Below are positions 15,001 through 53,900 of a DNA stretch of 64,000 bases, piece by piece; position 1 is the stretch's first letter, and each line of letters opens with the position of its first letter. This stretch comes from Arenicola marina. Lineage: Eukaryota; Annelida; Polychaeta; Arenicolidae. The stretch spans positions 32,792,186 to 32,856,185 of the forward strand of contig OZ025258.1 of assembly GCA_964019135.1 (NCBI GenBank), given 5' to 3'. The position numbers were made by a program, and so were the translations under genes. Under the pieces are notes generated by a model. It was not told where the DNA came from. It searched no databases and saw nothing but the letters and a program-made list of their open reading frames with translations.

Positions 15001-15628
15001 GCTCAGTGGAGAGAGGGACGAGGCTCTGTGGAGAGAGGGACGAGGCTCTGTGGAGAGAGGGACGAGGCTCTGTGGAGAGAGGGACGAGGCTCTGTGGAGA
15101 GAGGGACGAGGCTCTGTGGAGGGAGGGACGAGGCTCAGTGGAGAGAGGGACGAGGCTCTGTGGAGAGAGGGACGAGACTCTGTGGAGAGAGGGACGAGAC
15201 TCTGTGGAGAGAGGGACGAGGCTCAGTGGAGAGAGGGACGAGGCTCTGTGGAGAGAGGGACGAGGCTCTGTGGAGAGAGGGACGAGGCTCTGTGGAGAGA
15301 GGGACCAGGCTCTGTGGAGAGAGGGACGAGGCTCTGTCGAGAGAGGGACGAGGCTCAGTGGAGAGAGGGACGAGACTCTGTGGAGAGAGGGACGAGGCTC
15401 TGTGGAGAGAGGGACGAGGCTCTGTGGAGAGAAGGACGAGGCTCAGTGGAGAGAGGGACGAGGCTCTGTGGAGAGAGGGACGAGGCTCTGTGGAGAGAGG
15501 GACGAGGCTCTGTGGAGAGAGGGACGAGGCTCAGTGGAGAGAGGGACGAGGCTCTGTGGAGAGAAGGACGAGGCTCTGTGGAGAGAAGGACGAGGCTCAG
15601 TGGAGAGAGGGACACGGCTAAATGGAGA
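1..15628. repeat. 22-bp minisatellite/satellite array with 2,970-bp higher-order period
   Basis: About 710 head-to-tail copies of a 22-bp unit reading gtggagagagggacgaggct + ct. Common variants are aggctcagtgg, gagactctgtgg, gctctgtcgag and the rarer gggacacagctcaatgg. The array is already running at base 1 and ends in degenerate units at about 15600-15628. The variants are not random: the same order of variant units returns every 2,970 bp (135 units) through about the first 8.6 kb, and then at 2,948 and 3,014 bp, showing unit-number changes. Long stretches of the first three periods show no difference I could find. The strand is purine-rich (GA) on + and pyrimidine-rich on -. No gene is supported inside it. 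Confidence 0.97.
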
Positions 15629-30069: not shown

Positions 30070-30269
30070 NNNNNNNNNNNNNNNNNNNNNNNNNNNNNNN
30101 NNNNNNNNNNNNNNNNNNNNNNNNNNNNNNNNNNNNNNNNNNNNNNNNNNNNNNNNNNNNNNNNNNNNNNNNNNNNNNNNNNNNNNNNNNNNNNNNNNNN
30201 NNNNNNNNNNNNNNNNNNNNNNNNNNNNNNNNNNNNNNNNNNNNNNNNNNNNNNNNNNNNNNNNNNNNN
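30070..30269. other. Assembly gap (200 N)
   Basis: Exactly 200 N, a typical placeholder length, so the true size is unknown. It falls within Ly6 gene L2, between its signal-peptide exon on the right and whatever lies to the left. Confidence 0.99.
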
Positions 30270-30334
30270 TGAAGAATGCGTCTGTGTGGCAGGGACTTTG
30301 CAACGCGACAAGTCCGTAATTAAGTGTGACTCAC

Positions 30335-30407
30335 CAGGCGGCTTTTGTGGGCAAGCTGTAAAGCAAAAGAAAGAATGACATCTAAACAAAGTCAGAAAAA
30401 ATGACAT
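30335..30407 (-). CDS. L2: signal-peptide exon of a Ly6 gene, cut by the gap
   Basis: Minus-strand exon from ATG (30407) to the donor GTGAGT just below 30335, phase 1. It encodes MSFFLTLFRCHSFFCFTA followed by CPQKPPG. The ending matches the same exon of L3 (DCPEKPPG) and L4 (DCPQQPPG), including the conserved Cys near the cleavage site. An in-frame ATG further upstream (30452) would lengthen it by 15 residues. LU exons 2 and 3 are not visible; they must lie in the gap or have been lost. The start of the L3 last-exon region follows after about 150 nt, without the 43-bp minisatellite found at the corresponding place between the other copies. Confidence 0.6.
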
Positions 30408-30561: not shown

Positions 30562-32052
30562 TCAGTCACTATGTATGAGCACGTTACAACAATGCCCATG
30601 CAGAAACATGATCAGCAGGACCGGGGCCAGTAAGTTATAGACAATTCCACGCTCATGTGTTAATTCGAAGGCGTTATTATTGAGAACTCTTGTAAAGAAC
30701 GGGTCCATGGGCTGTATTCATAACTGCCACTTAGGCTACGCCACTAGAGTTAACGCTAAGTGGAAGATTTGCCGAGCAATTATCCTGTTTAAAATACATA
30801 AGTAGTCACTCAAGAAGGAGACTTTCTGAATTCAGGAAGTGCAAAAATTATATTAAAGACGATATCTTAATCATGAACAACACCACAACGAGCTGGTCAG
30901 GCTAAGACGAAAATGGACTTTTACTGCGTAACTTAAGAGGAGATTATGAACACGGCCTGAGCATTGTCTGTGCCCTGCAGGAACTCACCGATCACGGTGT
31001 CGATGTACTGTGCGGTGTTGTCGTTACAGCCCTCGCTGTCGCAATAGTAAGCACACTTCGACGTGTCGCCATTTTCGCAGTCGCCATTGTCCAGCGCTGG
31101 GGCAACGGAGGACCCCACACATCCCTTCTTTATCAAACTTGTGCTGAAATACATGTCAAAATATTCGCCAACTTTCCCATCGCCAAGTGAATCTGGATCT
31201 AAGACGTAACATGACACTACGAGAAAACTGTCCGAACATCAACATTTTCACAAATTATTCTACTAAACTTACTGCTACCAACAAGGACCAAATCCGTACA
31301 TATTTCCTGTCATGACGTATTTGAACAGCTGCTAATCGATTTGTATGCTAACAATGATGTTCGGAGAGTCTTCGTGGCGACTATAGGCGACCATCACTCA
31401 AACAATCGTCGACATGGGCACGTAAGTGGGTCATGCAATTAAGTCACCTTAATTGTTGCACATGGCAGTTGGGATGAAACGTGCGGGTTAATGAGCCTGG
31501 CCTGGTTTGCTGGCGCTTACCCTCCACTTTGGCATCGGATGCTGGTCCGACACACTTGGCTGGGGTTGCACTGCTCCAACGGACCCTGGTCACAGGTGGC
31601 CTCGTCCGGGGCGTCTTTGCACGATCGACACTTAATGCCTGAAAAAATCGTAACCACATGTCGGCGCTCAGCTCTTTTTCCGGTGTTTAGTTTATGGTAT
31701 TACATTAAAGTAAGATAGAAGAGATATATAACAAGAGGTAATTGTCTCACATTGAGTGGGTGAGGTGGGGTGGCGGGGTGGACATGTTATTAGGAGGCGA
31801 TTCTCGCTTAAGTAAATAATAGAGGATGACAGCAATATTGTGAATTGTAATCATTCTACTTGAAGAATGTAAGTTTTTGATTAATGCATCTGTCTGGCAG
31901 GGACTTTGTTCCGTAATAACGTATGACTCACCAGGCGGTTTCTCAGGGCAATCTGCAAAGCCAAAAAAAAATGACATATAAATAAGGTCAGAAACAATGA
32001 GAACGACGGTGACACTTACAAACAATAATATTACTGTGTGAAACACTGCCAT
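30562..32052 (-). CDS. L3: Ly6/LU domain protein, four exons, apparently intact
   Basis: Exons on the minus strand are 32052-31932, 31638-31521, 31143-30989 and 30686-30562; phases 1, 2, 1; 519 nt, 172 residues plus TGA. Exon 1 encodes a long hydrophobic leader (MAVFHTVILLF...) ending DCPEKPPG. A shorter start within it (MSFFFGFA) is also possible. Exon 2 begins IKCRSCKDAPDEATC and ends RCQSG. Exon 3 runs TSLIKKGCVGSS to SKCAYYCDSEGCNDN, with the family's C-x4-C-N. With the exon 1 Cys, the mature part has 12 cysteines. Exon 4 has Asn-rich sequence and a hydrophobic run LLAPVLLIMFL, then HGHCC and stops soon after, which looks like a GPI-anchor signal. The acceptor of exon 4 (ctttacaagag) is not ideal, but the reading frame is kept in L4 and L5. 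It is the first full gene of the tandem group, with near-identical introns to L4. Confidence 0.8.
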
Positions 32053-32231: not shown

Positions 32232-33350
32232 TCAAAATGCTTGGCGGCTATGAGACTGACAGGTGGGAGGTAACTCACAGAGCATGACGGCTATGAGACT
32301 GACAGGTGGGAGGTAACTCACAGAGCATGGCGGCGATAAGACTGACAGGTGGGAGGTAACTCCCAGAGCATGGCGGCTATGAGGCTGACAGGCGGAAGGT
32401 AATTCACAGAGCATGGCGGCTATGAGGCTGACAGGTGGGAGGTAACACACAGAGCATGGTGGCTAAAGGACTGACAAGCGGGAGGCAACACACCGAGCAT
32501 GGCGGCTATGAGACTGACAGGTGGGAGGTAACTCACAGAGCATGACGGCTATGAGGCTGACAGGTGAGAGGTAACTCACAGAGCATGGCGGCTATGAGAC
32601 TGACAGGTGGGAGGTAACTCACAGAGCATGACGGCTATGAGACTGACAGATGGGAGGCAACTCACAGAGCATGGCGGCGATAAGACTGACAGGTGGGAGG
32701 TAACTCCCAGAGCATGGCGGCTATGAGGCTGACAGGTGGAAGGTAACTCACAGAGCATGGCGGCTATGAGGCTGACAGGTGGGAGGTAACACACAGAGCA
32801 TGGCGGCTAAAGGACTGACAAGCGGGAGGCAACACACCGAGCATGGCGGCTATGAGACTGACAGGTGGGAGGTAACTCACAGAGCATGACGGCTATGAGA
32901 CTGACAGATAGGAGGCAACTCACAGAGCATGGCGGCGATAAGACTGACAGGTGGGAGGTAACTCCCAGAGCATGGCGGCTATGAGGCTGACAGGTGGAAG
33001 GTAACTCGGAGCATGGCGGCTATGAGACTGACAGGTGGGAGGTAACTCAGAGCATGGCGGCTATGAGGCTGACAGGTGAGAGATAACGCACAGAGCATGG
33101 CGGCTATGAGGCTAACAGGTGGAAGGTAACTCAGAGCATGGCGGCTATGAGACTGACAGGTGGGAGATAACTCAGAGCATGGCAGCTATGAGACTGACAG
33201 GCGCGAGGTAACTCACAGAGCATGGCGGCTATGAGACTGACAGGTGGGAGGTAACTCAGAGCATGGCAGCTATGAGACTGGCAGGCGCGAGGTGACTCAC
33301 AGAGCATGGCGGCTATGAGGCTGACAGGTGGGAGGTAACGCACAGAGCTG
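32232..33350. repeat. 43-bp minisatellite between L3 and L4 (about 26 copies), derived from a Ly6 splice-donor junction
   Basis: The unit on + is catggcggctatgagactga + caggtgggaggtaactcacagag, with variants acggctatg, ggcgataag, gaggctgac, cccagag and shortened cagagcatg. Parts of the array are duplicated as blocks (32232-32560 resembles 32580-32930). On the minus strand each unit reads CTCATAGCCGCCATGCTCT then GTGAGTTACC. Gene L6 reads CTCATCGAAGCCACGCTCT then GTGAGTTACC at its exon 3 end and intron start (38908-38955). The repeat therefore carries a copied exon end plus donor site. It sits between the L3 promoter and the L4 last exon. Confidence 0.93.
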
Positions 33351-33462
33351 GTAGGAAAGCTGACTACATACATCGGCTCTACTTAGCGGCGTCATGAGGC
33401 CTTCGGCGTGATACCATTGCCAGCTTAGGGTAGGCATTCGGTTGTGAAACATCACCACAGCT

Positions 33463-35045
33463 CTAAACAGATATATCTAGAAGGCGACCTGTACATGACT
33501 GCAGAGGGAAGAAGGCGCGCGTGTGTCTTGTATTTCGGTCACTATGTATGAGCACGTTGCAACAATGCCCATGCAGAAACATGATCAGCAGGACCGGGGC
33601 CAGTAAGTTAAAGAGAATTCCACGCTCATGTGCTAATTCAAAGGCGTTATTATTGAGGGCAACTCTTGTAACGAACGGGTCCAGGGGCTGTATTCATAAT
33701 CGCCACTTAAGCTACATCACTAGACTTAGCGCTAAGTGGAAGATTTGTCGAGCAATTATCGTGTTCAAAATACATAAGTAGTCACCCAAGAAGGAGATTT
33801 TCTGAATTCAGAAGTGCTCAAATTATATTAAAGAAGATTTCTTAATCATGAACACCACAACAAGCTGGTGAGGCGAAGACGAAAATGGACTTTTCGTGCG
33901 TAACTTACGAGGGAATTATGAATACGGCCTGACCATTTTCTGTGCTCTGGAGCAACTCACCGATCACGGTGTCGATGTACTGTGCGGTGTTGTCGTTACA
34001 GCCCTCGCTGTCGCAATAGTAAGCACACTTCGACGTGTCACCATTTTCGCAGTCGGCTTTGTCCAGCGCTGGGGCAACGGAGGACCCCACACATCCCTTC
34101 TTTATCAAACTTGTGCTGAAATACATGTCAAAATATTCGCCGACTTTCCCATCGCCAAGTGAATCTGGATCTAAGACGTAACATGACACTACGAGAAAAC
34201 TGTCCGAACATCAACATTTTCACAAATTATTCTACTAAACTTACTGCTACCAACAAGGACCAAATCCGTACATATTTCCTGTCATGACGTATTTGAACAG
34301 CTGCTAATCGATTTGTATGCTAACAATGCAGGACCCGATGTTCGGAGAGTCTTCGTGGCGACTATAGGCGACCATCACTCAAACAATCGTCGACATGGGC
34401 ACGTAAGTGGGTCATGCAATTAAGTCACCTTAATTGTTGCACATGGCAGTTGGGATGAAACGTGCGGGTTAATGAGCCTGGCCTGGTTTGCTGGCGCTTA
34501 CCCTCCACTTTGGCATCGGATGCTGGTCCGACACACTTGGCTGGGGTTGCACTGCTCCAACGGACCCTGGTCACAGGTGGCCTCGTCCGGGGCGTCTTTG
34601 CACGATCGACACTTAATGCCTGAAAAAAGCGTAACCACATGCCGGCGCTCAGCTCTTTTTCCGGTGTTTAGTTTATGGTATTACATTAAAGTAAGATAGA
34701 AGAGATATATAACAAGAGGTAATTGTCTCACATTGAGTTGGTGAGGTGGGGTGGCGGGGTGGACATGTTATTAGGAGGCGATTCTCGCTTAAGTAAATAA
34801 TAGAGGATGACAGCAATATTGTGAATTGTAATCATTCTACTTGAAAAATATAAGTTTTTGATTAATGCATCTGTCTGGCAGGGACTTTCCAACGCGATAG
34901 TTTCGTAATTACGTATGACTCACCAGGCGGTTGCTGAGGGCAATCTGCAAAGCAAAAGAAAAAAGGATATATAAACAAAGTCAGAAACAATGAGAACGAC
35001 TGTGACACTTACAAACAATAATATTGCTGTGTGAAACACTGCCAT
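33463..35045 (-). pseudogene. L4: Ly6/LU gene copy with damaged signal exon (probable recent pseudogene)
   Basis: Exons corresponding to L3 are 35045-34924, 34619-34502, 34115-33961 and 33662-33463. Exons 2-4 are intact in frame: IKCRSCKDAPDEATC, then TSLIKKGCVGSS to SKCAYYCDSEGCNDN, then an Asn-rich segment, LLAPVLLIMFL and a longer tail ending DISV-TAG. Exon 1 is 122 nt against 121 in L3; the extra base lies in its T-rich stretch. Translation from the conserved ATG (MAVFHTAILLF) therefore leaves the frame before the Cys-containing end, and the frame that reaches DCPQQPPG has no ATG. The TATA box seen in L3 is changed to TACAAATA. Introns and flanks are otherwise almost the same as L3, so the loss is recent. 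Expression from another start, or a sequencing error, remains possible. Confidence 0.6.
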
Positions 35046-35229
35046 CTTTAATACACCTCAGACTGCATTGATAGTATGTAGTGCTGCGTTCAACATTATT
35101 GAGAGAACTAGAATATCCTGGAAAGGCGGCAAAAAGTATCGTTTTTCACACCGATACATATTTGTAGCGCTATAAGGAATCATTGCACCTCCATATCTTA
35201 GTAGCGATGAAGCCCTACTCACACTCGAA

Positions 35230-36905
35230 ATGCATGGCGGCTATGAGACTGACAGGTGGGAGCTAACTCACAGAGAATGGCGTCTATGAGGCTGACAGGT
35301 GGGAGGTAACTCACAGAGTATGACGGCTATGAGACTGACAGGTGGGAGGTAACTCACAGAGCATGGCGTCTATGAGGCTGACAGGCGGGAGGTAACTCAC
35401 AGAGCATGACGGCTATGAGACTGACAGGTGGGAGGTAACTCACAGAGTATGACGGCTATGAGACTGATAGGAGGGAGGTAACTCAGAGAGCATGGCGGCG
35501 ATAAGACTGACCGGTGGGAGGTAACTCACAGAGCATGGCGGCTATAAGACTGACAGGTGGGAGGTAACTCACAGAGCATGGCGGCTATAAGACTGACAGG
35601 TGGGAGGTAACTCACAGAGTATGACGGCTATGAGACTGACAGGTGGGAGGTAACTCACAGAGCATGGCGTCTATGAGGCTGACAGGTGGGAGGTAACTCA
35701 CAGAGCATGACGGCTATGAGACTGACAGGTGGGAGGTAACTCACAGAGTATGACGGCTATGAGACTGACAGGTGGGAGGTAACTCAGAGAGCATGGCGGC
35801 GATAAGACTGACCGGTGGGAGGTAACTCACAGAGCATGGCGGCTATAAGACTGACAGGTGGGAGGTAACTCACAGAGCATGACGGCTATGAGACTGACAG
35901 GTGGGAGGTAACTCACAGAGCATGACGGCTATGAGACTGACAGGTGGGAGGTAACTCACAGAGCATGACGGCTATGAGACTGACGGATGGGAGGTAACTC
36001 AGAGAGCATGGCGGCTATGAGACTGACAGGTGGGAGGTAACTCACAGAGCATGGCGGCTATGAGACTGACAGGTGGGAGATAACACAGAGCATGGTGGCT
36101 ATGAGGCTGACAGGTGGGAGGTAACTCAGAGAGCATGGCGGCTATGAGACTGACAGGTGGGAGGTAACTCACAGAGCATGGCGGCTATGAGACTGACAGG
36201 TGAAAAGTAGCTCACAGAGCATGGCGGCTATGAGACTGACAGGTGGGAGGTAACTCACAGAGCATGGCGGCTATGAGACTGACAGGTGGGAGGTAAATCA
36301 CAGAGCATGGCGGCTATGAGACTGACATGTGGGAGGTAACTCACAGAGCATGGCGGCTATGAGACTGACGGATGGGAGGTAAATCACAGAGCATGGCGGC
36401 TATGAGACTGACATGTGGGAGGTAACTCACAGAGCATGACGGCTATGAGACTGACGGATGGGAGGTAAATCACAGAGCATGGCGGCTATGAGACTGACAT
36501 GTGGGAGGTAACTCACAGAGCATGGCGGCTATGAGACTGACAGGTGGAAGGTAACTCAGAGAGCATGGCGGCTATGAGACTGACAGGTGGGAGGTAACTC
36601 ACAGAGCATGGCGGCTATGAGGCTGACAGGTGGGAGATAACACAGAGCATGGCGGCTATGAGGCTGACAGGTGGGAGGTAACTCAGAGAGCATGGCGGCT
36701 ATGAGACTGACAGGTGGGAGGTAACTCACAGAGCATGGCGGCTATGAGACTGACAGGTGAAAAGTAGCTCACAGAGCATGGCGGCTATGCGACTGACAGG
36801 TGGGAGGTAACTCACAGAGCATGGCGGCTATGAGACTGACAGGTGGGAGGTAACTCAGAGAGCATGGCGGCTATGAGACTGACAGGTGGGAGGTAACGCA
36901 CAGAG
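35230..36905. repeat. 43-bp minisatellite between L4 and L5 (about 39 copies), same family as 32232-33350
   Basis: Same 43-bp unit and orientation as the L3/L4 array, with its own local variants (gagtatgac, gcgtctatg, acggatggg, gtgaaaagtagctc, gacatgtgg). Several multi-unit blocks are repeated: the segment around 36000-36240 recurs around 36545-36790. Every unit again carries the GTGAGTTACC donor on the minus strand. The following 36905-37020 segment is nearly the same as 33350-33462, so the array travelled with the gene duplication but its copy number changed. Confidence 0.94.
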
Positions 36906-37020
36906 CTGGTAGGAAAGCTGACTATATACATCGGCTCTACTTAGCGGCGTCATGAGGCCTTCGGCGTGATACCATTGCCAGCTTAGGGTAGGCATTCGGT
37001 TGTGAAACATCACCGCAGCT

Positions 37021-38631
37021 CTAAACAGATATATCTGCAAGGCGACCTGTACATGACTGCAGAGGGAAGAAGGCCCGCGTGTGTCTTGTATTTCGGTCAC
37101 TATGTATGAGCACGTTGCAACAATGCCCATGCAGAAACATGATCAGCAGGACCGGGGCCAGTAAGTTAAAGACAATTCCACGGTCATGTGGTAATTCAAA
37201 GGCGTTATTATTGAGGACAACTCTTGTAACGAACGGGTCCAGGGGCTGTATTCATAGTCGCTAATTGGGCTACGCCACTAGACTTGCTAAGTGGAAGATT
37301 TGTCGAGCAATTATCGTGTTCAAAATACATAAGTAGTCACCCAAGAAGGAGATTTTCTGAATTCAGAAGTGCTCAAATTATATTAAAGAAGATGTCTTAA
37401 TCATGAACACCACAACAAGCTGGTGAGGCGAAGACGAAAATTGACTTTTCCTGCGTTACTTACGAGGGGATTATGAATACGGCCTGACCATTATCTGTGC
37501 TCTGGAGCAACTCACCGATCACGGTGTCGATGTACTGTGCGGTGTTGTCGTTACAGCCCTCGCCGTCGCAATAGTAAGCACACTTCGACGTGTCACCATT
37601 TTCGCAGTCGGCTTGGTCCAGCGCTGGGGCAACGGAGGACCCTACACATCCCTTCTTCATCACACTTGTGCTGAAATACATGTCAAAAGATTCGCTAACT
37701 TTCCCACGCCATATTAATATGGATCTAAGACGTTTCATGACACTACGAGAAAACTGTCCGAACATCAACATTTTCACGAATTATTCTACTAAACTTACTG
37801 CTACCAACAAGGACCAAATCCGTACATATTTCCTGTCATGACGTATTTGAACAGCTGCTAATCGATTTGTATGCTAACAATGCAGAACCCGATGTTTGGA
37901 GATTCTTCATGGCGACTTTAGGCGACCATCACTCAAACAATCGTCGCCATGGATACGTAAGTGGGTCATGCAGTTAGGTCACCTTAATTGTTGGAGATCG
38001 CAGTTGGGATGCACCGTGCGGGTTAATGAGCCTAGCATGGTTAGCTGGCGCTTACCCTCCACTTTGGCATCGGATGCTGGTCTGACACACTTGCTTGGGG
38101 TTGCACTGCTCCAAAGGACCCTGGTCACAGGTAGCCTCGTCCGGGGCGTCCGTGCATGACCGACAACTAATTACTGGAACAACGCGTAACCACATGTCGG
38201 AGCTCAGCTCTTCTTCCGGTGTTTAGTTTATGGTATTAAACAAAAATTAAGATCAACGGAATGCATGACAATTGGGAATTTTCATCGTTACATTGTTTGG
38301 TTGAGGTGAGGTGGGCGGGTTATTACAGGGGCATGCATCGAATATCAGCGAATACCGAATAGCGAGTGAGGGCCCGATCGTAAATTGTAATCATTCAACT
38401 TCAATAAATTCATGGTTTATTAAAAATGTTTGATCAATACATCTCTCCGACGGAGACTTGTCAACATAACAGTTTGGTATGGAATTGAGACTCACTTGGT
38501 TTGGCGCACGCTGGGAAGGCAAGAAAGAAAATAGCTTGTTGATATATGGACAAGTTAGAAACAATAATAACAACGGCGACAGATAGGAACAACATATTAG
38601 TGTGGGAGAACCAGAAACCCAACGACATCAT
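37021..38631 (-). CDS. L5: Ly6/LU domain protein, four exons, apparently intact
   Basis: Exons are 38595-38496 (or from 38631), 38173-38056, 37670-37516 and 37220-37021; phases 1, 2, 1; 573 nt, 190 residues plus TAG. The nearest ATG gives MLFLSVAVVIIVSN... ending FLAFPACAKP. An in-frame upstream ATG (38631) adds MMSLGFWFSHTN, so the leader length is uncertain. Exon 2 is ISCRSCTDAPDEATC to RCQSG. Exon 3 is TSVMKKGCVGSS to SKCAYYCDGEGCNDN. Exon 4 keeps Asn-rich sequence and the hydrophobic run LLAPVLLIMFL, but reads past the stop used in L3 (CGA for TGA) to add about 25 residues ending LADISV. Exon 4 has one more codon than L3 near its start, a frame-keeping indel typical of coding sequence. 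The protein differs from L3/L4 by conservative changes, mainly in exons 1 and 2. Confidence 0.8.
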
Positions 38632-38738: not shown

Positions 38739-39812
38739 CTATAAAAAATCATTTGAAGTAAACAATGAGGCGAAACTGCGGTATGCAGAAGATACTGCTT
38801 AAAGTAATAAGTACAAACCCTCCATAGCGCACACTTCTCATCAACCCATCATAACGCAAACAAAATCATGGTTCTCGCCTATTAGTCTGAATTAATATAC
38901 CCGTGAGAACTGACAGGTCGGCGGTAACTCACAGAGCGTGGCTTCGATGAGACTGGCGGTATCGTCGTTACAGCCATCGCTGTCACAGACCATGCTGCAC
39001 TTCTTGTTGTCCGAACTGTCACACGTCACGACATTGACTGCCGGGCCTTCACCCACACACCCCTTGCTTATCTCACTGGCCCTGCAAGGTCAGCAAAGGA
39101 GATTCAGAGGCAGCTGGAACATTTGGGTGATCAATCCAGAGGCAGAGGAGGTAAAAGTTTGAAAACTTTTGGGTCCACTTTGCATGAGATGAAAGCTTAG
39201 GATGGGGGGTGTGGTGGCGGGGACTGTTAGGAAACTGACGACGAGCGTACCCAAATAAGGAGCAGTGAAGCGGGGGAGGGGGCACACCTAAATATACAGC
39301 ACAATTTACGTTTAATTGGGCCTCTATGCTCGCAGTTTTAGACACGTGACCCCCCCCCCCCCATACACCCATTCCCTATATCCGCCAGCGCTATTCACGC
39401 ATATTCGTGTGTATGCATGTCGTCTATTTACCCTCCGGAGGTACACCGCATTTTCGTCCGACACACTTGGTAGTCTTTGCATTGCACTAGTTGTCCCTGC
39501 CCGTCACAAGTACTCTCATCGGCAGAGGCATCGCAGCTGCGACACTTGGGTCCTGAAAAGATAATTGTGTTGCCATTGGAATCACATGCGGTGTATGTGA
39601 ATGCAGAGCACTGGCTATGATGTGTTCAATTAAACGACTATACTAGCGTGCCATGTCATTGTAAAAGAGAGTTTAATTACAGGATCAGTTTGTTGGTGTC
39701 TCAAAGAAGACTACGTTAACTGGCGGCATAGCGGCCACGGCATAGAGAACTCACCAACATCTTTGACCGCACACGCTGCAAGAAATAATAAGAAAGTCAG
39801 TAATGTCATCAT
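38739..39812 (-). CDS. L6: secreted Ly6/LU domain protein
   Basis: Firm exons are 39812-39755, 39552-39432 and 39081-38933; phases 1, 2, 1. Exon 1 is a compact signal peptide, MMTLLTFLLFLAA, then CAVKDV. Exon 2 is PKCRSCDASADESTC to RCTSG and has donor GTAAAT. Exon 3 starts after cttgcag with ASEISKGCVG and contains KKCSMVCDSDGCNDD, then SLIEATL. The terminal exon is uncertain. The candidate 38794-38739 (after tttaagcag) keeps the phase and gives SSAYRSFASLFTSNDFL then TAG, which would make the protein 127 residues without a clear GPI tail. This is the clearest signal-peptide exon of the cluster and shows that the leader and the first Cys are encoded together. The exon 3 end plus donor of this gene is the best match to the 43-bp minisatellite unit. 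Confidence 0.78.
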
Positions 39813-40584
39813 TACAGGAGCAGCCAGCAATAATTAGTAGTACTAGTAATGTTATGACTACTACTACCGCTACCACCATATAATAAATATAATTTTATTA
39901 AAGTTCATAATATTTTTAATAATAAAGATACAAGTTTCGAAAATGAGTAGTATTTGCATCCATTTATCGAGCAAAGAGCTTTAAATTGACAGCTAATATT
40001 CTACAGCTAGAAAGTAACATTTCAAACGACGAGAAGTGTGACTCATGCAAATGTCTAATGAGTGGCATATGTGTTACTGCGTCTGATTTAGACGTCCAGG
40101 TTTCGCCCCGAATGAGATATGGGAGGCCAAGGCCCTGGCGCCATGAATAAAGTTAGGTCACATTAGTTCTTTGCCTCAGGACGCTAAAAACAATAGCTGG
40201 ATAAGTTGATCGTACGGAGGGGAGATGCATTCAAACTCGGTTAACGCATAACGGTAAAGTGAGAAAATAAATGGACCTGGACGATGTATGTGTCTTTAGG
40301 CCACTATGAAAATAGTGGGGTTGGGTGTGAATGGTAGATAAGTATACGGTTGATGGTGGTGCATGATCGGGTAAGCTGCCAGTCACCAATATAACAATCT
40401 GTAGCTGTAGGCTGTAGCTGTAGCTGCCAGCCAATTTTCATTATCCGCCCTGGGCCGCAAGGATAATGAAACTGAAGGGCTGCAACAGGTTGATGAAGGT
40501 TTCATAAAATGTCTAACGCCATGCAAAACTCGTTCTATTACTATTACTGCGAGTTGAATTTAAATCCAACTTTACCTCACATAT
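39813..40584. other. Unique DNA between L6 and the LINE
   Basis: Presumed promoter side of L6 plus unclassified sequence. I could not place a TATA box for L6. From about 40380 the sequence (gctgtagctgtagctgccag) may be the 5' untranslated part of the LINE, but no boundary is visible. Confidence 0.4.
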
Positions 40585-42213
40585 GTGCTGGGCGTTAACA
40601 TGTCTCCTTGCTTCTTTGGCCAAACTTTCTTATACAACGTTCAAAGTTATCTCGATAACTTGGGACATGATTTTACTGTATATGCTTTGAGTGAGACGTG
40701 GTTTAACGATGTTAACGAAGATCTCTATGGCTTTGATGGTTATTCTGCAGTTAATAATTACCGTAGTGACCGACGAGGAGGTGGTGTCTCACTGTTTGTG
40801 AAGGAAGGTGTTAATTTTACTCGCAGAGATGAATTAGAAGTGTTTGATGCGAATATGGAAGCTTTGTTTATTGAAATTGACAAATGTGCAACCACTAATG
40901 ATAAAGAAGTTATTATAGGAGTGATATATCGCCCACCCGATACGCATATTGAGTCTTTTAACGAGCTATTGACAGAGGTGCTACATAAATTAGTCTCTGA
41001 GGAAAAAACCATCTACCTAACTGGCGATTTTAACATTAATCTTTTAAATAATTCAACACACAGACCTACGACTGACTTCGTTAATACCATGTTTAGTCAT
41101 TCTTTAATGCCAACTATTAGTAAGCCAACTAGAGTCACAAGTAAAACTGCAACCCTAATTGATAATATATTTACAAATGAGAGTGATATTAAGTCTTTTC
41201 AGGGTATTATGTACACTGACATCACGGATCACTTTCCTATATTTTATGTATCAAAGCATATTGAAGTGGATACACATGTTAAAGTTTGTAGTAAAAGAAA
41301 ATATTCAAATGAAAATAAGGAAGCCTTTTGTAACAGGTTGTCAGAGTATAACTGGGGTAGGGTATTGGAATGCTCGAACACCCAAGATGCATTTACTGAG
41401 CTACATGGTGCTATTGATAAGTTTCATAAAGAATGTTTCCCAGTTATTGTGTCGAAATCAAAATATAAAAATAGAAAGCCATGGCTTTCAAGTGGGCTTA
41501 AAAAATCTATAGCTTTAAAGAATAAACTTTATCTGAGATGCAAAAAAACGAAGAATGATACTTATATGCAAGAATATAAGAAGTATAAAAACATGCTGCT
41601 TATTACTATCAGAAATGCGGAGAAACTGTATTACCAGAACTTAATTAAGCAGAACCAAAATAATTTATTCAAAACCTGGAACACCAGTAAGGAGGTCATT
41701 AACAGGAACAAATCTAGGCACACACAAACGACATTTCTCTCTAATGGCACAGCTCTTTCTTACCGAAATCAAGTCGCTAACGGATTTAATGACTTTTTTG
41801 TTAACATTGGTAAAACTCTGAGTAAGTCTATTCCCAAATCTAAGGACTCCCCCTTAACGTTTCTGCCTAATACTCTTGTTAACAGTTTCTTTCTAGATCC
41901 GGTTAACGAAGAAGAAGTCAGACAGGTGATAGGATCTTTAAAAAACAGTTCTTCAGGGTGGGACTCGTTGACGGCCAAAACCATTAAGCCTGCTATAAAT
42001 ACAATTATAGAACCTCTGACTCATGTAATTAATATGTCGTTCAAAGAGGGACATTTCCCGAGTGAGCTAAAACTAGCTAGAGTAATTCCCATCTTTAAAG
42101 GAGGTAACGATAAACTTTTTAGCAACTACCGTCCCATTTCTATTCTTCCTACTTTTTCAAAGGTCTTTGAACAGTTAATGTACAAACGACTGATGAAGCA
42201 CATGAAGATGTAA
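40585..42213 (+). CDS. LINE ORF2 fragment: AP-type endonuclease plus start of reverse transcriptase
   Basis: 542-codon open frame. Residues about 30-225 form an apurinic-type (EEP) endonuclease: SETW at 36-39, GGGVSLFVKEG at 65-75, GVIYRPPD at 112-119, TGDFNINLL at 146-154, TLIDNIFTN at 190-198 and TDHFPIF at 214-220. A linker follows, and the reverse transcriptase begins with IPIFKGG and NYRPISILP (from 514). The frame then ends at MKHMKM-TAA, before the palm motifs, so the catalytic core of the reverse transcriptase and any 3' domain are missing. Full ORF2 proteins of this group are near 900-1000 residues. In life the protein would nick target DNA and copy the element RNA. The N-terminus may also lack some residues. 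Confidence 0.9.
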   Translation: MLGVNMSPCFFGQTFLYNVQSYLDNLGHDFTVYALSETWFNDVNEDLYGFDGYSAVNNYRSDRRGGGVSLFVKEGVNFTRRDELEVFDANMEALFIEIDKCATTNDKEVIIGVIYRPPDTHIESFNELLTEVLHKLVSEEKTIYLTGDFNINLLNNSTHRPTTDFVNTMFSHSLMPTISKPTRVTSKTATLIDNIFTNESDIKSFQGIMYTDITDHFPIFYVSKHIEVDTHVKVCSKRKYSNENKEAFCNRLSEYNWGRVLECSNTQDAFTELHGAIDKFHKECFPVIVSKSKYKNRKPWLSSGLKKSIALKNKLYLRCKKTKNDTYMQEYKKYKNMLLITIRNAEKLYYQNLIKQNQNNLFKTWNTSKEVINRNKSRHTQTTFLSNGTALSYRNQVANGFNDFFVNIGKTLSKSIPKSKDSPLTFLPNTLVNSFFLDPVNEEEVRQVIGSLKNSSSGWDSLTAKTIKPAINTIIEPLTHVINMSFKEGHFPSELKLARVIPIFKGGNDKLFSNYRPISILPTFSKVFEQLMYKRLMKHMKM

Positions 42214-44475: not shown

Positions 44476-44630
44476 ATAGGACGGTGTTGATCTGATCCAC
44501 GTCGTCACCGTTACACCCGTCGGAATCACAGTAGGTCATACACTTGGAGTTGGTAGAGTCTGTACACGTGGGACCTCCATTGATGTCAGTAGCGGTTTTA
44601 GAGCCAATGCAACCTTTCTTTACCATGACG
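44476..44630 (-). CDS. L7: C-terminal LU exon (exon 3) of a Ly6 gene, isolated
   Basis: 155-nt minus-strand exon between acceptor gattactttccag and donor GTGAGC, the same length and phases (2 in, 1 out) as exon 3 of L3-L5. It encodes VMVKKGCIGSKTATD, a GGPTC segment, then SKCMTYCDSDGCNGDD and DQINTVL, with the family's C-x4-C-N. Exons 1 and 2 should lie to the right. Only 330 nt of unique DNA remain there before a 55-bp minisatellite that runs to the window edge, and no LU exon is present in that piece. So either an intron of over 19 kb is filled by the array, or the gene has been broken. Confidence 0.75.
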
Positions 44631-44959: not shown

Positions 44960-47900
44960 ACCGAAAGACCCACTTGACGACGGTCTGGCAGATATGTTGA
45001 GGTCACAACCTACCCAATGGTGAGACACTTGACCACGGCCTCGCAGGTATGTTGAGGTCACAAGCTACCCATTGGTGAGACACTTGACGACGGACTGGCA
45101 GATATGTTGAAGTCACAACCTACTCATTGGTGAGACACTTGACGACGGTCTGGCAGGTATGTTGAGGTCACAACCTACCCATTGGTCAGACATTTGACGA
45201 CGGTCTGGGAGATATGTTGAGGTCACAACCTACCTATTGGTGAGACACTTGACGACGGTCTGGCAGATATGGTGAGGTCACGACCTACCCATTGGTGAGA
45301 CACATGACGACGGACTGGCCGATATTTTGAGGTCACAACCTACCCATTAGTGAGACACTTGACGACGGTCTGGCAGATATGTTGAGGTCACACCCTACTC
45401 ATTGATGAGACACTTGACGACGGTCTGGCAGGTATGTTGAAGTCAAAACTTACCCATTGGTGAGGCACTTGACGACGGTCTGGCAGATATGTTGAGGTCA
45501 GAACCTACCCATTGGTGATACACTTGACGACGGTCTGGCAGATATGTTGAGGTAACAACCTACCCAATGGTGAAACACTTGACGACGGTCTGGCAGATAT
45601 GTTGAGGTCACACCCTACCCATTGGTGAGACACTTGACGACGGTCTGGCAGATATGTTGAGGTCACAACCTACCCATTGGTGAGACACTTGACGACGGTC
45701 TGGCAGATATGTTGAGGTCACAGGCTACCCATTGGTGAGACACTTGGCGAGGGTGTGGCAGATATGTTGAGGTCACAACCTACCCATTGGTGAGACACTT
45801 GACGACGGACTGGCAAATATGTTGAGGTCACAACCTACCCATTGGTGAGACACTTGACGACGGTCTGGCAGATATGTTGAGGTCACAAGCTACCCATTGG
45901 TGAGACACTTGACGACGGACTAGCAGATATGTTGAGGTCACAACCTTCCAATTGGTGTGACACTTAACGACGGTCTGGCAGATATGTTGAGGTTACAACG
46001 TACCCATTGGTGAGACACTTGACGACGGTCTGGCAGATATGTTGAGGTCACAACCGTCCCATTGGTGAGACACTTGACGACGGTCTGGCAGATATGTTGA
46101 GGTCACAACCTACCCATTGGTGAGACACTTGACGACGGTCTGGCAGATATGTTGAGGTCACAACCTACCCATTGGTGAAACACTTGACGACGGTCTGGCA
46201 GATATGTTGAGGTCACAACCTACCCATTGGTGAGACACTTGACGACGGTCTGGCAGATATGCTGAGGTCACAACCTACTCATTGGTGAGACACTTGACGA
46301 CGGTCTGGCAGATATGTTGAAATCACAACCTGCCGATTGATGAGACACTTGACGACGGTCTGGCAGGTATGTTGAGGTCACAACCTACCCATTGGTGAGA
46401 CACTGGACGACGGTCTGGCAGATATGTTGAGGTCACAACCTACCCATTGGTGAGACACTTGACGACGGTCTGTCTCAACCTATGATGAGGTCACAACCTA
46501 CCCATTGGTAAGACACTTGACGACGGTCTGGCAGATATGTTGAGGTCACAACCTACCCATTGGTGAGACACTTGACGACGGTCTGGCAGATATGTTGAGG
46601 TCACAGCCTACCCATTGGTGAGACACTTGACGACGGTCTGTCTCAACCTATGTTGACGTCACAACCTACCCATTCGTAAGACACTTGACGACGGTCTGGC
46701 AGATATGTTGAGGTCACAACCTACCCATTCGTGAGACACTTGACGACGGTCTGGCAGATATCTTGTTACAACCTACCCAATGGTGAGACACTTGACGACG
46801 GTCTGGCAGATATGTTGAGGTCACAACCTACCCATTGGTGAGACACTTGACGACGGTCTGGCAGATATGTTGAAGACACAACCTACCCATTGATGAGACA
46901 CTTGACGACGGTCTGGCAGGTATGTTGAGGTCACAACCTACCCATTGGTGAGACACTTGACGACGGTCCGGCAGATATGTTGATGTAACAACCTACCCAT
47001 TGGTGAGGTACTTGACGACGGCCTGTCTCAACCTATGTTGAGGTCACAACCTACCCATTGGTGAGACACTTGACGATAGCCTGGCAGATATGTGGAGGTC
47101 ATAACCTACCCATTGGTGAGACACTTGGCGACGGTCTGACAGATATGTTGAGGTCACAACCTACCCATTCGTGAGACACTTGACGACGGTCTGGCAGATA
47201 TGTTGAAGTCACAACCTATCCATTGATGAGACACTTGACGACGGTCTGGCAGGTATGTTGAGGTCACAACCTACCCATTGGTGAGACACTGGACGACGGA
47301 CTGGCAGATATGTTGAGGTCACAACCTACCCATTGGTGAGACACTTGACGACGGTCTGTCTCAACCTATGTTGAGGTCACAACCTACCCATTGGTAAGAC
47401 ACTTGACGACGGTCTGGCAGATATGTTGAGGTCACAACCTACCCATTGGTGAGACACTTGACGACGGTCTGGCAGATATTTTGAGGTCACAGCCTACCCA
47501 TTGATGAGACACTTGACGACGGTCTGGCAGATATGTTGAGGTCACAACCTACCCATTCGTGAGACACTTGACGACGGTCTGGCAGATATATTGAGGTCAC
47601 AACCTACCCATTGGTGAGACACTTGACGACGGTCTGGCAGATATGTTGAGGTCACAACCTACCCATTGGTGAGACACTTGACGACGGTCTGGCAGACATG
47701 TTGAGGTCACAACCTACCCATTTGTGAGACACTTGACGACGGTCTGGCAGATATGTTGAGGTCACAACCTAACCATTGATGGGACACTTGACGATAGCCT
47801 GGCAGATATGTGGAGGTCATAACCTACCCATTGGTGAGACACTTGGCGACGGTCTGACAGATATGTTGAGGTCACAACCTACCCATTCGTGAGACACTTG

Positions 47901-50900
47901 ACGACGGTCTGGCAGATATGTTGAAGTCACAACCTATCCATTGATGAGACACTTGACGACGGTCTGGCAGGTATGTTGAGGTCACAACCTACCCATTGGT
48001 GAGACACTTGACGACGGACTGGCAGATATGTTGAGGTCACAACCTACCCATTCGTGAGACACTTGACGACGGTCTGTCTCAACCTATGTTGAGGTCACAA
48101 CCTACCCATTGGTAAGACACTTGACGACGGTCTGGCAGATATGTTGAGGTCACAACCTACCCATTCGTGAGACACTTGGCGACGGTCTGGCAGATATGTT
48201 GAGGTCACAACCTACCCATTGATGGGACACTTGACGACGGTCTGGCAGATATGTTGAGGTCGCAACCTACCCATTGGTGAGACACTTGACGACGGTTTGG
48301 CAGATATGTTGAGGTCACAACCTACCCATTGGTGAGACACTTGACGACGGTCTGTCTCAACCTATGATGAGGTCACAACCTACCCATTGGTGAGACACTT
48401 GACGACGGTCTGGCAGATATGTTGAGGTCACAACCTACCCATTGGTAAGACACTTGACGACGGTCTGGCAGATATGTTGAGGTCACAACCTAGCCATTGG
48501 TGAGACACTTGACGACGGTCTGGCAGATATGTTGAGGTCACAACCTACCCATTCGTGAGACACTTGACGACGGTCTGGCAGATATGTTGAGGTCACAACC
48601 TACCCAATTCGTGAGACACTTGACGACGGTCTGGCAGATATCTTGTCACAACCTACCCACTGGTGAGACACTTGACGACGGTCTGGCAGATATGTTGAGG
48701 GCCCAACCTATCCATTGGTGAGACACCTGACGACGGTCTGGCAGATATGTTGAGGTCACAAGCTACCCATTGGTGAGAGACTTGACGAGGGTGTGCAGAA
48801 ATGTTGAGGTCACAACCTACCCATTGGTGAGACACTTGACCACGGTCTGGCAGATATGTTGAGGTCATAACCTACCCATTGGTGAGACACTTGACGACGG
48901 TCTGGCAGATATGTTGAGGTCACAACCTACCCATTGGTGAGAAACTTGACGATGGCCTGGCAGATATGTTGAGGTCACAACCTACCCATTGGTGAAACAC
49001 TTGGCGACGGTCTGGCAGATATGTTGAGGTCGCAACCCAACCATTAGTGAGACACTTGACGACGGTCTGGCAGATATGTTGAGGTCACAACCTACCCATT
49101 GGTGAGACACTTGACGACGGTCTGGCAGATATGTTGAGGTCACAACCTACCCATTGGTGAGACACTTGACGACGGTGTGGCAGATATGTTGAGGTCACAA
49201 CCTACCCATTCCTGAGACACATGACGACGGTCTGGCAGATATGTTGCGGTGACAACCTACCCATTGGTGAGACACTTGACGACGGTCTGGCAGATATGTT
49301 GAGGTCACAACCTACCAATTGGTGAGACACTTGACGACGGTCTGGCAGATATGTTGAGGTCACAACCTACCCATTGGTGAGACACTTGACGACGGTCTGG
49401 CAGATATGTTGAGGTTACAACCTACCCATTGGTGAGACACTTGACGACGGTCTGGCAGATATGTTGAGGTCACAACCTACCCATTGGTGAGACACTTGAC
49501 GACGGTCTGGCAGATATGTTGATGTCACAACCTACCCCTTGGTGAGACACTTGACGACGGTCTGGCAGATATCTTGTCACAACCTACCCACTGGTGAGAC
49601 ACTTGACGACGGTCTGGCAGATATGTTGAGGTTACAACCTACCCATTGGTGAGACACTTGACGACGGTCTGGCAGATATGTTGAGGTCACAACCTACCCA
49701 TTGGTGAGACACTTGACGACGGTCTGGCAGATATGTTGAGGTCACAACCTACCCCTTGGTGAGACACTTGACGACGGTCTGGCAGATATCTTGTCACAAC
49801 CTACACACTGGTGAGACACTTGACGACGGTCTGGCAGATATGTTGAGGTCACAAGCTACCCATTGGTGAGACACTTGACGACGGTCTGGCAGATATGTTG
49901 AGGTCACACCCACCCATTGGTGAGACAGTTGACGACGGTCTGGCAGATATGTTGAGGTCACAACCTATCCATTAGTGAGACACCTGACGACGGTCTGGCA
50001 GATATGTTGAGGTCACAAGCTACCCATTGGTGAGACACTTGACGAGGGTGTGCAGATATGTTGAGGTCACAACCTGCCCATTTGTGAGACACTTGACCAC
50101 GGTCTGGCAGATATGTTGAGGTCATAACCTACCCATTGGTGAGACACTTGACGACGGTCTGACAGGGATGTTGAGGTCACAACCTACCCATTGGTGAGAC
50201 ACTTGACGATGGTCTGGCAGATATGTTGAGGTTACAACCTACCCATTGGTGAGACACTTGACGACGGTCTGGCAGATATGTTGAGGTCACAACCTACCCA
50301 TTGGTGAGACACTTGACGACGGTCTGGCAGATATGTTGAGGTCACAACCTACCCCTTGGTGAAACACTTGACGACGGTCTGGCAGATATCTTGTCACAAC
50401 CTACACACTGCTGAGACACTTGACGACGGTCTGGCAGATATGTTGAGGTCACAAGCTACCCATTGGTGAGACACTTGACGACGGTCTGGCAGATATGTTG
50501 AGGTCACACCCACCCATTGGTGAGACAGTTGACGACGGTCTGGCAGATATGTTGAGGTCACCACCTATCCATTAGTGAGACACCTGACGACGGTCTGGCA
50601 AATATGTTGAGGTCACAAGCTACCCATTGGTGAGACACTTGACGAGGGTGTGCAGATATGTTGAGGTCACAACCTGCCCATTTGTGAGACACTTGACCAC
50701 GGTCTGGCAGATATGTTGAGGTCATAACCTACCCATTGGTGAGACACTTGACGACGGTCTGGCAGGGATGTTGAGGTCACAACCTACCCATTGGTGAGAC
50801 ACATGACGATGGCCTGGCAGATATGTTGAGGTCACAACCTACCCATTGGTGAGACACTTGGCGACGGTCTGGCAGATATGTTGAGGTCACTGTCTAACCA

Positions 50901-53900
50901 TTGGTGAGACACTTGACGACGGTCTGGCAGATATGTTGAAGTCACAACCTACCCATTCGTGAGACACTTGACGACGGTCTGGCAGATATGTTGAAGTCAC
51001 AACCTAACCATTCCTGAGACACTTGACGACGGTCTGGCAGGTATGTTGAGGTCACAACCTACCCATTGGTGAGACACTTGACGACGGTCTGGCAGATATG
51101 TTGAGGTCACAACCTACCCATTGGTGAGACACTTGACGACGGTCTGGCAGATATGTTGAGGTCACAACCTACCCATTGGTGAGACACTTGACGACGGTCT
51201 GGCAGATATGTTGAGGTCACAACCTACCCATTGGTGAGACACTTGACGACGGTCTGGCAGATATGTTGAGGTTACAACCTACCCATTGGTGAGACACTTG
51301 ACGACGGTCTGGCAGATATGTTGAGGTCACAACCTACCCCTTGGTGAGACACTTGACGACGGTCTGGCAGATATCTTGTCACAACCTACCCACTGGTGAG
51401 ACACTTGACGACGGTCTGGCAGATATGTTGAGGTTACAACCTACCCATTGGTGAGACACTTGACGACGGTCTGGCAGATAAGTTGAGGTCACAACCTACC
51501 CCTTGGTGAGACACTTGACGACGGTCTGGCAGATATCTTGTCACAACCTACCCACTGGTGAGACACTTGACGACGGTCTGGCAGATATGTTGAGGTCACA
51601 AGCTACCCATTGGTGAGACACTTGACGACGGTCTGGCAGATATGTTGAGGTCACACCCACCCATTGGTGAGACAGTTGACGACGGTCTGGCAGATATGTT
51701 GAGGTCACAACCTATCCACTAGTGAGACACCTGACGACGGTCTGGCAGATATGTTGAGGTCACAAGCTACCCATTGGTGAGACACTTGACGAGGGTGTAC
51801 AGATATGTTGAGGTCACAACCTGCCCATTTGTGAGACACTTGACCACGGTCTGGCAGATATGTTGAGGTCATAACCTACCCATTGGTGAGACATTTGACG
51901 ACGGTCTGGCAGGGATGTTGAGGTCACAACCTACCCATTGGTGAGACACTTGACGATGGCCTGGCAGATATGTTGAGGTCACAACCTACCCATTGGTGAG
52001 ACACTTGGCGATGGTCTGGCAGATATGTTGAGGTCACTGCCTAACCATTGGTGAGACACTTGACGACGGTCTGGCAGATATGTTGAAGTCACAACCTACC
52101 CATTCGTGAGACACTTGACGACGGTCTGCCAGATATGTTTAAGTTACCACCTACCCATTGATGAGACACTTGACGACGGTCTGGCATGTATGTTGAGGTC
52201 ACAACCTACCCATTGGTGAGACACTTGACGACGGACTGGCAGATATGTTGAGGTCACAACCTACCCATTGGTGAGCCACTTGACGACGGTCTGTCTCAAC
52301 CTATGTTGAGGTCACAACTTACCCATTGGTGAAACACTTGACGACGGTCTGGCAGATATGTTGAGGTCACAACCTACCCATTGGTGAGACACTTGACGAC
52401 GGTCTGGCAGATATGTTGAGGTCACAGCCTACCCGTTGGTGAGACACTTGACGACGGTCTGGCAGATATGTTGAGGTCACAACCTACCCATTGGTGAGAC
52501 ACTTGACGACGGTCTGGCAGATATGTTGCGGTCACAACCTACCCATTGGTGAGACGCTTGACGACGGTCTGGCAGATATGTCGATGTCACAACCTACCCA
52601 TTCGTGAGACACTTGACGACGGTCTGGCAGATATGTTGATGTCACAACCTATCCATTGGTGAGACACTTGACGACGGTCTGGCAGATATGTTGAAGTCAC
52701 AACCTACCCATTGGTGAGACACTTGACGAGGGTGTGGCAGATATGTGGAGGTCACAACCTACCCATTGGTGAGACACTTGACGACGGTCTGGCAGATATG
52801 TTGAGGTCACAACCTACCCATCGGTAAGACACTTGACGACGGTCTGGCAGATGTGTTGAGGTCACAACCTACCCATTGGTGAGGCACTTGACGACGGTCT
52901 GGCAGACATGTTGAGGTCACAACCTACCCATTGGTGAGACACTTGACGACGGTCTGTCTCAACCTATGTTGAGGTCACAACCTACCCATTGGTGAGACAC
53001 TTGACGACGGACTGGCAGATATGTTGAGGTCACAACCTACGCATTCGTGAGACACTTGACGACGGTCTGTCTCAACCTATGTTGAGGTCACAACCTACCC
53101 ATTCGTGAGACACTTGACGACGGTCTGGCAGATATGTTGAGGTCACAACTTACCCATTGGTGAGACACTTGACGACGGTCTGGCAGGTATGTTGAGGTCA
53201 TAACCTACCCATTGGTGTGACACTTGACGACGAACTGGCAGATATGCTGAGGTCACAACCTACCCATTGGTGAGACACTTGACGACGGTCTGGCATATAT
53301 GTTGAGGTCACAACCTACCCATTGGTGAGACACTTGACGACGGACTGGCAGATATGTTGAGGTCACAACCTACCCATTGGTGAAACACTGGACGACGGTC
53401 TGGCAGATATGTTGAGGTCACAACCTACCCATTGGTGAGACACTTGACGACGGTCTGGCAGATATGTTGAGGTCGTAACCTACCCATTGGTGAGACACTC
53501 GACGACGGTCTGGCAGATATGTTGAGGTCACAAGGTACCCATTGGTGAGACATTGACGACGGTCTGGCAGATATGTTGAGGTCACAACCCACCCATTGGT
53601 GAGACACTTGACGACGGTCTGGCAGATATGTTGAGGTCACAAGCTACCCATTGGTGAGACACTTGACGACGGTCTGGCAGATATGTTGAGGTCACACCCA
53701 CCCATTGGTGAGACACTTGACGACGGTCTGGCAGATATGTTGAGGTCACCACCTATCCATTAGTGAGACACCTGACGACGGTCTGGCAAATATGTTGAGG
53801 TCACAAGCTACCCATTGGTGAGACACTTGACGAGGGTGTGCAGATATGTTGAGGTCACAACCTGCCCATTTGTGAGACACTTGACCACGGTCAGGCAGAT

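Follow-up and report, generated by a model that had tools for sequence, protein, structure and literature searches.

Two arrays of a 43-bp minisatellite, found in the introns of a gene of three-finger-like modules in the annelid Arenicola marina, are very probably derived from the end of an exon and its 5' splice site (donor), which would have expanded in tandem at the exon B donor of one type of module (here called D2'), in the manner of the "mirages" known from amphioxus, as a by-product that would later have been displaced from its exon in two other modules, D3 and D4. The arrays lie in a stretch of 64,000 nucleotides, hereafter the window, which is C11:32792186-32856185 of an 867-Mb genome (contig OZ025258.1, here C11, of GenBank assembly GCA_964019135.1); other C11 coordinates are given in the same numbering. 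The evidence is that exon and array are contiguous in the two copies that were read and overlap by coordinates in nine, that frame and phase agree, that paralogues differ in copy number, and that the junctions of four further kinds of donor also have tandem copies. Seldom can the sequence that gave rise to a minisatellite still be seen; here its base pairs remain in place and in frame, next both to arrays with 2 to 410 copies and to sisters that are free of arrays. Two types of gene, each present in nine copies, serve as natural replicates in which the birth, growth and displacement of intronic minisatellites become testable, and they provide a natural case of one donor being chosen among hundreds of identical ones.

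The 43-bp unit and its parental junction

The original prediction, drawn from the window itself, was that the 43-bp repeat had been made from the exon/5' splice-site junction of a gene of the Ly6 family, specifically that of a gene called L6. When the unit with 5 additional bases was slid ungapped along both strands of the whole window, arrays excluded, the top score of 41/48 fell on the minus strand at 38908-38955, exactly where the match had been claimed, and the runner-up scored 24/48. The similarity also survives the comparison with shuffled sequence that had been proposed as a check, in that the maximum in 200 dinucleotide shuffles of the 21.6 kb of unique window sequence was 30. A BLAST alignment of the 43-bp unit with the junction extends over 52 bp at 86.5% identity (E 8e-12), and the remaining array units that were tested lack a BLAST partner with E < 0.7 in the non-array part of the window, except for the 26-bp unit at 30368. 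The matched bases are the final 23 of the exon and the initial 25 of the intron, with the same reading frame on both sides (gene, SLIEATL; unit, SLIAAML), which bears out the span from coding sequence across the exact boundary into the intron that had been described. The unit itself is composed of the last 23 bases of exon B and the first 20 of the intron, donor included, and like the 55-, 33- and 26-bp units considered below it spans an exon/intron boundary, as the units of mirages do. AG is intact in all 63 full-length units of the window, and the pyrimidine-rich stretch ending in CAG is present as noted earlier, while GT is found in 48 and GTGAGT in 35 (11 of the 25 full units of the D4 array, 24 of the 38 of the D3 array), so that the earlier figure of about 65 copied 5' splice sites was too high.

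The parental junction itself was sought in the whole genome with the 221-bp junction of exon B of module D2, the module that had been called L6. This query finds nine copies at 100% (rounded), which constitute the D2 type, and nine at 80-81%, which constitute the D2' type; all are on C11, where copies of the two types alternate along the chromosome except in two places. Matches to the 43-bp array, among those listed (40 of 48 candidates scored), likewise all fall within C11:32.20-32.83 Mb. By coordinates, the exon match overlaps a 43-bp array match in each of the nine D2' copies. In the first D2' copy read (locus L039) exon B ends in AGTGCCAGTCTCATAGCCGCCATGCTCT, the intron opens with GTGAGTTACCTCCC and the array begins directly, and in a second (L043) exon B is likewise continuous with its array, so that array and authentic boundary adjoin in both. 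The D2-type copies, by comparison, are array-free in both copies read. Because D2' overlaps the array in nine of nine copies and is closer to the unit (42/43 identical bases in L039 and 41/43 in L043, versus 37/43 in D2), we regard it as the putative parental type and D2 as its array-free sister. L6 as the direct parent is ruled out by these better, array-overlapping exons. The genome thus does hold a better match than the one first put forward, yet to a related exon, which supports the idea behind the original prediction; its core, that the minisatellite came from an exon/5' splice-site junction of this gene family, was right and is strengthened by the whole-genome data.

Two other explanations of the resemblance can be weighed at this point. 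Chance similarity between an unrelated minisatellite and an exon junction has in its favor only the divergence at 7 of 48 positions; it is refuted by the distance between 41/48 and the shuffle maximum and by the overlap of exon and array in nine paralogues, and it may be set aside with near certainty. The reverse direction of descent, in which a pre-existing minisatellite supplied or overwrote the end of the exon, draws on the fact that the D2' exon end is also the first array unit and could be homogenised with the array, the exon ending in SLIAAML in one copy with an array and in SLVSAML in another. However, exon ends homologous to this one, and in frame with it, occur in array-free modules (SLIEATL in D2, QYIDTVI in D3, QINTVL in D1), and the two cysteines of the 55-bp unit stand at the same place in array-free modules, which makes this direction very improbable.

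Arrays at other donors

The 55-bp array that runs off the right edge of the window starts at the donor of exon A of module D1 (C11:32859806-32859684, outside the window), an origin that was predicted from the window alone and then confirmed in the flanking sequence. D1 exon A ends in CAGACCGTCGTCCGGTGTCTCACCAATGG, the intron continues with GTAGGTTGTGACC, and 410 copies follow over 22.6 kb; the neighboring gene has 7.4 copies. There are nine copies of D1 exon A at 95-100%; D2 exon B lies 4.84-7.88 kb away from it in eight of them, as against 28.6 kb in the window copy. A 33-bp array of 181 copies begins at another exon B donor, with 48, at least 23 (at a locus edge) and, on the two sides of an insert, 2.2 + 13 copies in paralogues; a 26-bp array begins at another exon A donor, with 14 and 20 copies; and an 84-bp duplication in two copies occurs at a further exon A donor. 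Paralogues therefore differ in copy number from 7.4 to 410 for the 55-bp unit and from 2.2 + 13 to 181 for the 33-bp unit. Arrays are absent from exon A of the type II module D1' (in the copy read), from D2 (in both copies read), and from the last D3-type module (in both gene copies read).

The 181-unit array (L022-L021, C11:32883659 down to 32877607) keeps the frame of its exon: 616 codons can be read on from exon B without a stop, four exon-frame stops occur in ~1990 array codons, and the repeat peptide is approximately SKYMSALFQAL. Read-through ends after 56, 56 and 94 codons in three other copies read. We did not adopt it as hidden coding sequence, given that the main variants alter the amino acid.

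Proposed origin and possible roles of the arrays

The 43-bp arrays would have originated in a three-finger-like module of the D2' type, at the donor of its exon B. Slippage or end-joining may have produced the first duplication where short direct repeats stood about one period from each other, and the copy number would then have been altered by unequal exchange. In D2' the real exon is the first unit, with the copies extending into the intron, so that the first donor would still be able to define the exon. In D3 and D4 an inserted block, or else exchange between modules, would later have parted the array from its exon. The likeliest reading is that a minisatellite-rich region gave rise to the arrays as a by-product that is tolerated; this is the simplest of the three roles (decoy donors, recombination substrates or by-product) that had been suggested for them.

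A role as functional decoys, in which the copied donors bind U1 or compete in splicing and thereby regulate or vary the transcript, would be helped by the abundance of the copies: exact downstream copies of the authentic donor 9-mer in the same intron number 264 in the ~410 units of the 55-bp array, 25 in the ~37 units of one D2' array, and 24 and 11 in the two window arrays, and in the largest 33-bp array the frame would stay open over ~51 units if a later donor were used. The donor is not preserved, however: only two of the 43 unit positions are less conserved than its G (0.84), and among 192 units from eight 43-bp arrays 122 have an intact GTGAGT. Use of the next donor would shift the frame at periods of 43, 55 and 26, read-through of the 55-bp array stops at once, and regular splicing is reported by the authors in the sections on amphioxus mirages (PMC3087553, PMC3902484). 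Nothing in these sequences indicates that splicing is what retains the copies, and we consider the decoy role improbable.

The arrays could also be recombination substrates, maintained by and driving an unequal exchange that alters the number of modules or genes. Module number does vary between gene copies, with three D3-type modules seen in the window gene and five in the next. Moreover, module W3 has X4 as its closest relative in the block before the array (98.4%) and X1 and X2 in the block behind it (98.5%), and for X4 the block behind the array is closest to X3 (98.3%); such different closest relatives before and after an array point to exchange in or near it. A similar W3/X4 switch (85.8% on one side, 96.4% on the other) is nevertheless seen in the array-free intron between exons A and B, so that exchange is not specific to the arrays. 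The original suggestion of a recombination substrate has limited support, and we hold this role to be possible but on balance doubtful.

Further evidence for and against the proposed origin

Several observations weigh against an origin of the window arrays by expansion at a D2' donor. Neither 43-bp array of the window lies at an exon boundary; they stand ~606 bp from their host exon B, the junction of which differs from the array unit, and the step from D2' to D3 and D4 is one that we infer. No more than ~250 bp of this block can be accounted for, by similarity to a dispersed element (approximately block positions 29-283, with inverted ends at 37244-37259 and 37469-37484) that recurs at non-homologous places in the cluster. 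Beyond the array, the D3 intron aligns with the D2 intron (score 50 versus a maximum of 26 in 100 shuffles); the D3 block before the array cannot be aligned to that intron, its score being reached by 75 of 100 shuffles. The D5 intron contains most of the block and has no array. Parallels exist elsewhere in the cluster: a 33-bp donor array is interrupted, with 2.2 copies on one side and 13 on the other, by an insert of ~330 bp whose ends appear to be inverted (TTACCAGGCCTG...; L009, C11:32753428-32753770), and a partial exon B 3' end with the 33-bp repeat lies in a later intron (L021, C11:32875830-32875900), where it forms a second displaced donor array. These sequences suggest that array and exon were parted by insertion or by exchange between modules.

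The traces of the first duplication are also open to objection. In D2, CAGTCTCA in the exon is followed 43 bp on, in the intron, by CAGTTCTCA, a gapped partial second copy. This direct repeat requires a one-base gap, an ungapped 8-mer test does not place +43 among its top three spacings, and 80 of 2897 random positions have a perfect 4-mer match at +43; taken alone, it is weak evidence of birth. Stronger evidence comes from another array-free exon A, in which the 9-bp GTGGTCTGT is repeated exactly at a spacing of 27 and whose relatives carry the 26-bp array. Such partial second copies would be what slippage or end-joining between short direct repeats needs, or else the relics of a contracted array, and the array-free sisters in general may have contracted rather than being ancestral.

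A final group of observations, which point both ways, concerns whether donors are special. In the 200 kb around the window and two further pieces, 72 A and B exons were placed automatically, and 71 donors and 69 acceptors were located. With a tandem copy defined as a second occurrence, within 150 bp, of the 30-bp junction sequence (identity ≥70%), 11 of the 71 donors, belonging to five donor families, have a downstream copy and none has an upstream one; no acceptor (0/69) has a copy on either side by the same measure, the best reaching 0.60. At 2911 random positions of the 200 kb, copies occur on both sides (inside arrays) at 1195, downstream only at 35 and upstream only at 52, which sets the downstream background at 1.2% of all positions (35/2911) or 2.0% of non-array positions (35/1716). 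The donor rate is 7.6-fold above the latter (binomial 2e-7 for 11/71), and donors differ from acceptors with a Fisher probability of 0.0006. The 11 donors, though, are five families whose paralogues are not independent, and 5/71 against the 2% background gives a binomial value of 0.015; for this reason the true strength of the excess is nearer to the weaker figure. Furthermore, a 28-bp triplication lies across an acceptor boundary (CAG/ACA) before a fibronectin type III (fn3) exon of an unrelated gene (L044, C20:20687900-20687982), which indicates that boundary duplications in this genome are not confined to donors, and a genome-wide donor-only rule was dropped on that account. This acceptor array of 3 copies is the sole array detected by Tandem Repeats Finder (TRF) in a control of 9.3 kb from that fn3-rich gene, on another contig, in which none of the 9 candidate donors listed has a tandem copy; a single control locus says little about rates. 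A tentative generalization, which we rate well short of even odds, is that splice boundaries, and chiefly 5' splice sites, are recurrent birthplaces of minisatellites in this genome, that their copies are hidden from selection while the first donor still defines the exon, and that some of them grow to as much as tens of kilobases, become homogenised and in turn affect the coding end of their parent exon. If this were true, a large class of intronic minisatellites would gain a traceable origin.

The host gene and its surroundings

The window gene contains five modules on the minus strand, in each of which exon A measures ~120 bp and exon B ~150 bp; exon A of D1 is just beyond the window edge (Table 1). 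A splice-phase model joins the 12 exons of D2-D5, including a short linker exon C in each, into a single open frame of ~400 residues. Since the exon phases link them in one frame, the modules belong to one gene, in whose introns the arrays sit, and the separate tandem Ly6 genes of the original prediction are ruled out. A run of ~200 N at window positions ~30070-30270, downstream of D5, is a place where more exons may be missing; the three D3-type modules seen in the window gene are followed by it, and the five mentioned above are those of the adjacent gene. In C11:32.20-32.86 Mb there are nine gene copies of type I, all of them matched at 100% (rounded) by the D2 junction query, and nine of type II; the two types mostly alternate, and the type I genes are 61-77 kb apart except for one gap of 130 kb.

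By eye, the translation of every module has CxxC near its start and CN at its end. Matches to curated families of the LU (Ly6/uPAR) group do not reach the family cut-off (UPAR_LY6_2, E 1.3; Toxin_TOLIP, 0.71; QVR, 2.7), and there is a weak match in PDB to activin receptor 2B (E 0.027); all four we take to be three-finger folds. We use the term "LU-like" for these modules because the curated-family matches are weak and below threshold, and their cysteine pattern appears to resemble that of three-finger (LU) domains.

Among the other contents of the window is an open frame of 549 amino acids (40564-42213) on the strand opposite to the gene, with endonuclease domains of a non-LTR (non-long-terminal-repeat) retroelement and best matches at ~46-48% identity. 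The left end of the window (1-15613) lies within a 30-kb array of a 22-bp unit in ~1366 copies (C11:32777748-32807798), and TRF arrays occupy ~45% of the 200 kb surrounding the window.

Table 1. Exons, arrays and related features of the window (positions in the 64,000-nucleotide stretch)
Feature	Positions	Strand	Context	Basis
Exon C (linker), D5	30335-30355	-		splice-phase model
Exon B, D5	30989-31143	-	intron array-free	splice-phase model
Exon A, D5	31521-31638	-		splice-phase model
Exon C (linker), D4	31932-31952	-		splice-phase model
43-bp array, 26.0 copies	32242-33348	-	exon B to exon C intron of D4	TRF
Exon B, D4	33961-34115	-	host of 26-copy array intron	splice-phase model
Exon A, D4	34502-34619	-		splice-phase model
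Exon C (linker), D3	34924-34944	-		splice-phase model
43-bp array, 39.0 copies	35232-36906	-	exon B to exon C intron of D3	TRF
Intron block, ~606 bp	36907-37515	-	between D3 exon B and array	sequence comparison
Exon B, D3	37516-37670	-	host of 39-copy array intron; own junction unlike unit	splice-phase model, junction sequences
Exon A, D3	38056-38173	-		splice-phase model
Exon C (linker), D2	38496-38510	-		splice-phase model
Sister junction, D2 ("L6")	38908-38955	-	exon B end and donor, one unit	41/48 match, shuffles
Exon B, D2	38933-39081	-		splice-phase model, tblastn
Exon A, D2 ("L6")	39432-39552	-		splice-phase model
Exon B, D1	44476-44630	-		splice-phase model
55-bp array (part)	44971-64000	-	part of 410-copy, 22.6-kb array	TRF, flanking sequence

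Comparison with known systems

Very large minisatellites in an annelid intron, within tandemly duplicated genes, are also known from intron 1 of earthworm metallothionein genes, where the repetitive region measures 10-19 kb, although a splice junction within the repeats is not reported in the portions of that paper devoted to them (PMC12783039). The tandem genomic duplication of AGGT sites, discussed in a review as a route to intron gain (PMC3443670), resembles the present case, as far as its account of that route goes, in that splice signals are copied in tandem; here it is an existing intron that has been lengthened, and no new intron was seen. In segmentally duplicated human genes, tandem repeats at boundaries average 30-bp units, 4 copies and 160 bp and are tied to new introns (PMC2812944). 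From what is described there, they share with the A. marina arrays the occurrence of boundary minisatellites in recent duplicates and the variation of copy number among paralogues, and differ in that the repeats here lengthen existing introns and can be very large.

The closest likeness is to the mirages of amphioxus, minisatellites at exon/intron boundaries of which two BflGb6 haplotypes carry 6 and 3 units (PMC3087553, PMC3902484). According to the descriptions of these arrays, both systems have a unit that spans the boundary, a copied splice site, an array that adjoins the real boundary, and a variable copy number. As against the 6 and 3 units given for amphioxus, the arrays here reach 410 copies and 22.6 kb; and unlike what is described there, five junction families occur within one gene family and some arrays are displaced from their exon. 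The LU-like exons examined here have arrays at donors only, whereas the amphioxus paper describes both boundaries. The host is an annelid and not a cephalochordate, a difference that has no bearing on structure. A mitochondrial fragment of this genome agrees with that: it has the order ND3-ND2-COX1-COX2, its COX1 is open under mitochondrial codes 5 and 9, and a tRNA-Asn-like stretch with a GTT anticodon loop, read by eye and not called by ARAGORN, stands between COX1 and COX2. This order corresponds to the ground pattern of annelids and differs from the amphioxus one, so that amphioxus is rejected as host. Among the open-licence papers listed, minisatellites of this kind were recognised only for amphioxus and, at a smaller size, for duplicated human genes; the arrays of A. 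marina extend the mirage phenomenon, as it is described for amphioxus, to an annelid and to a larger size.

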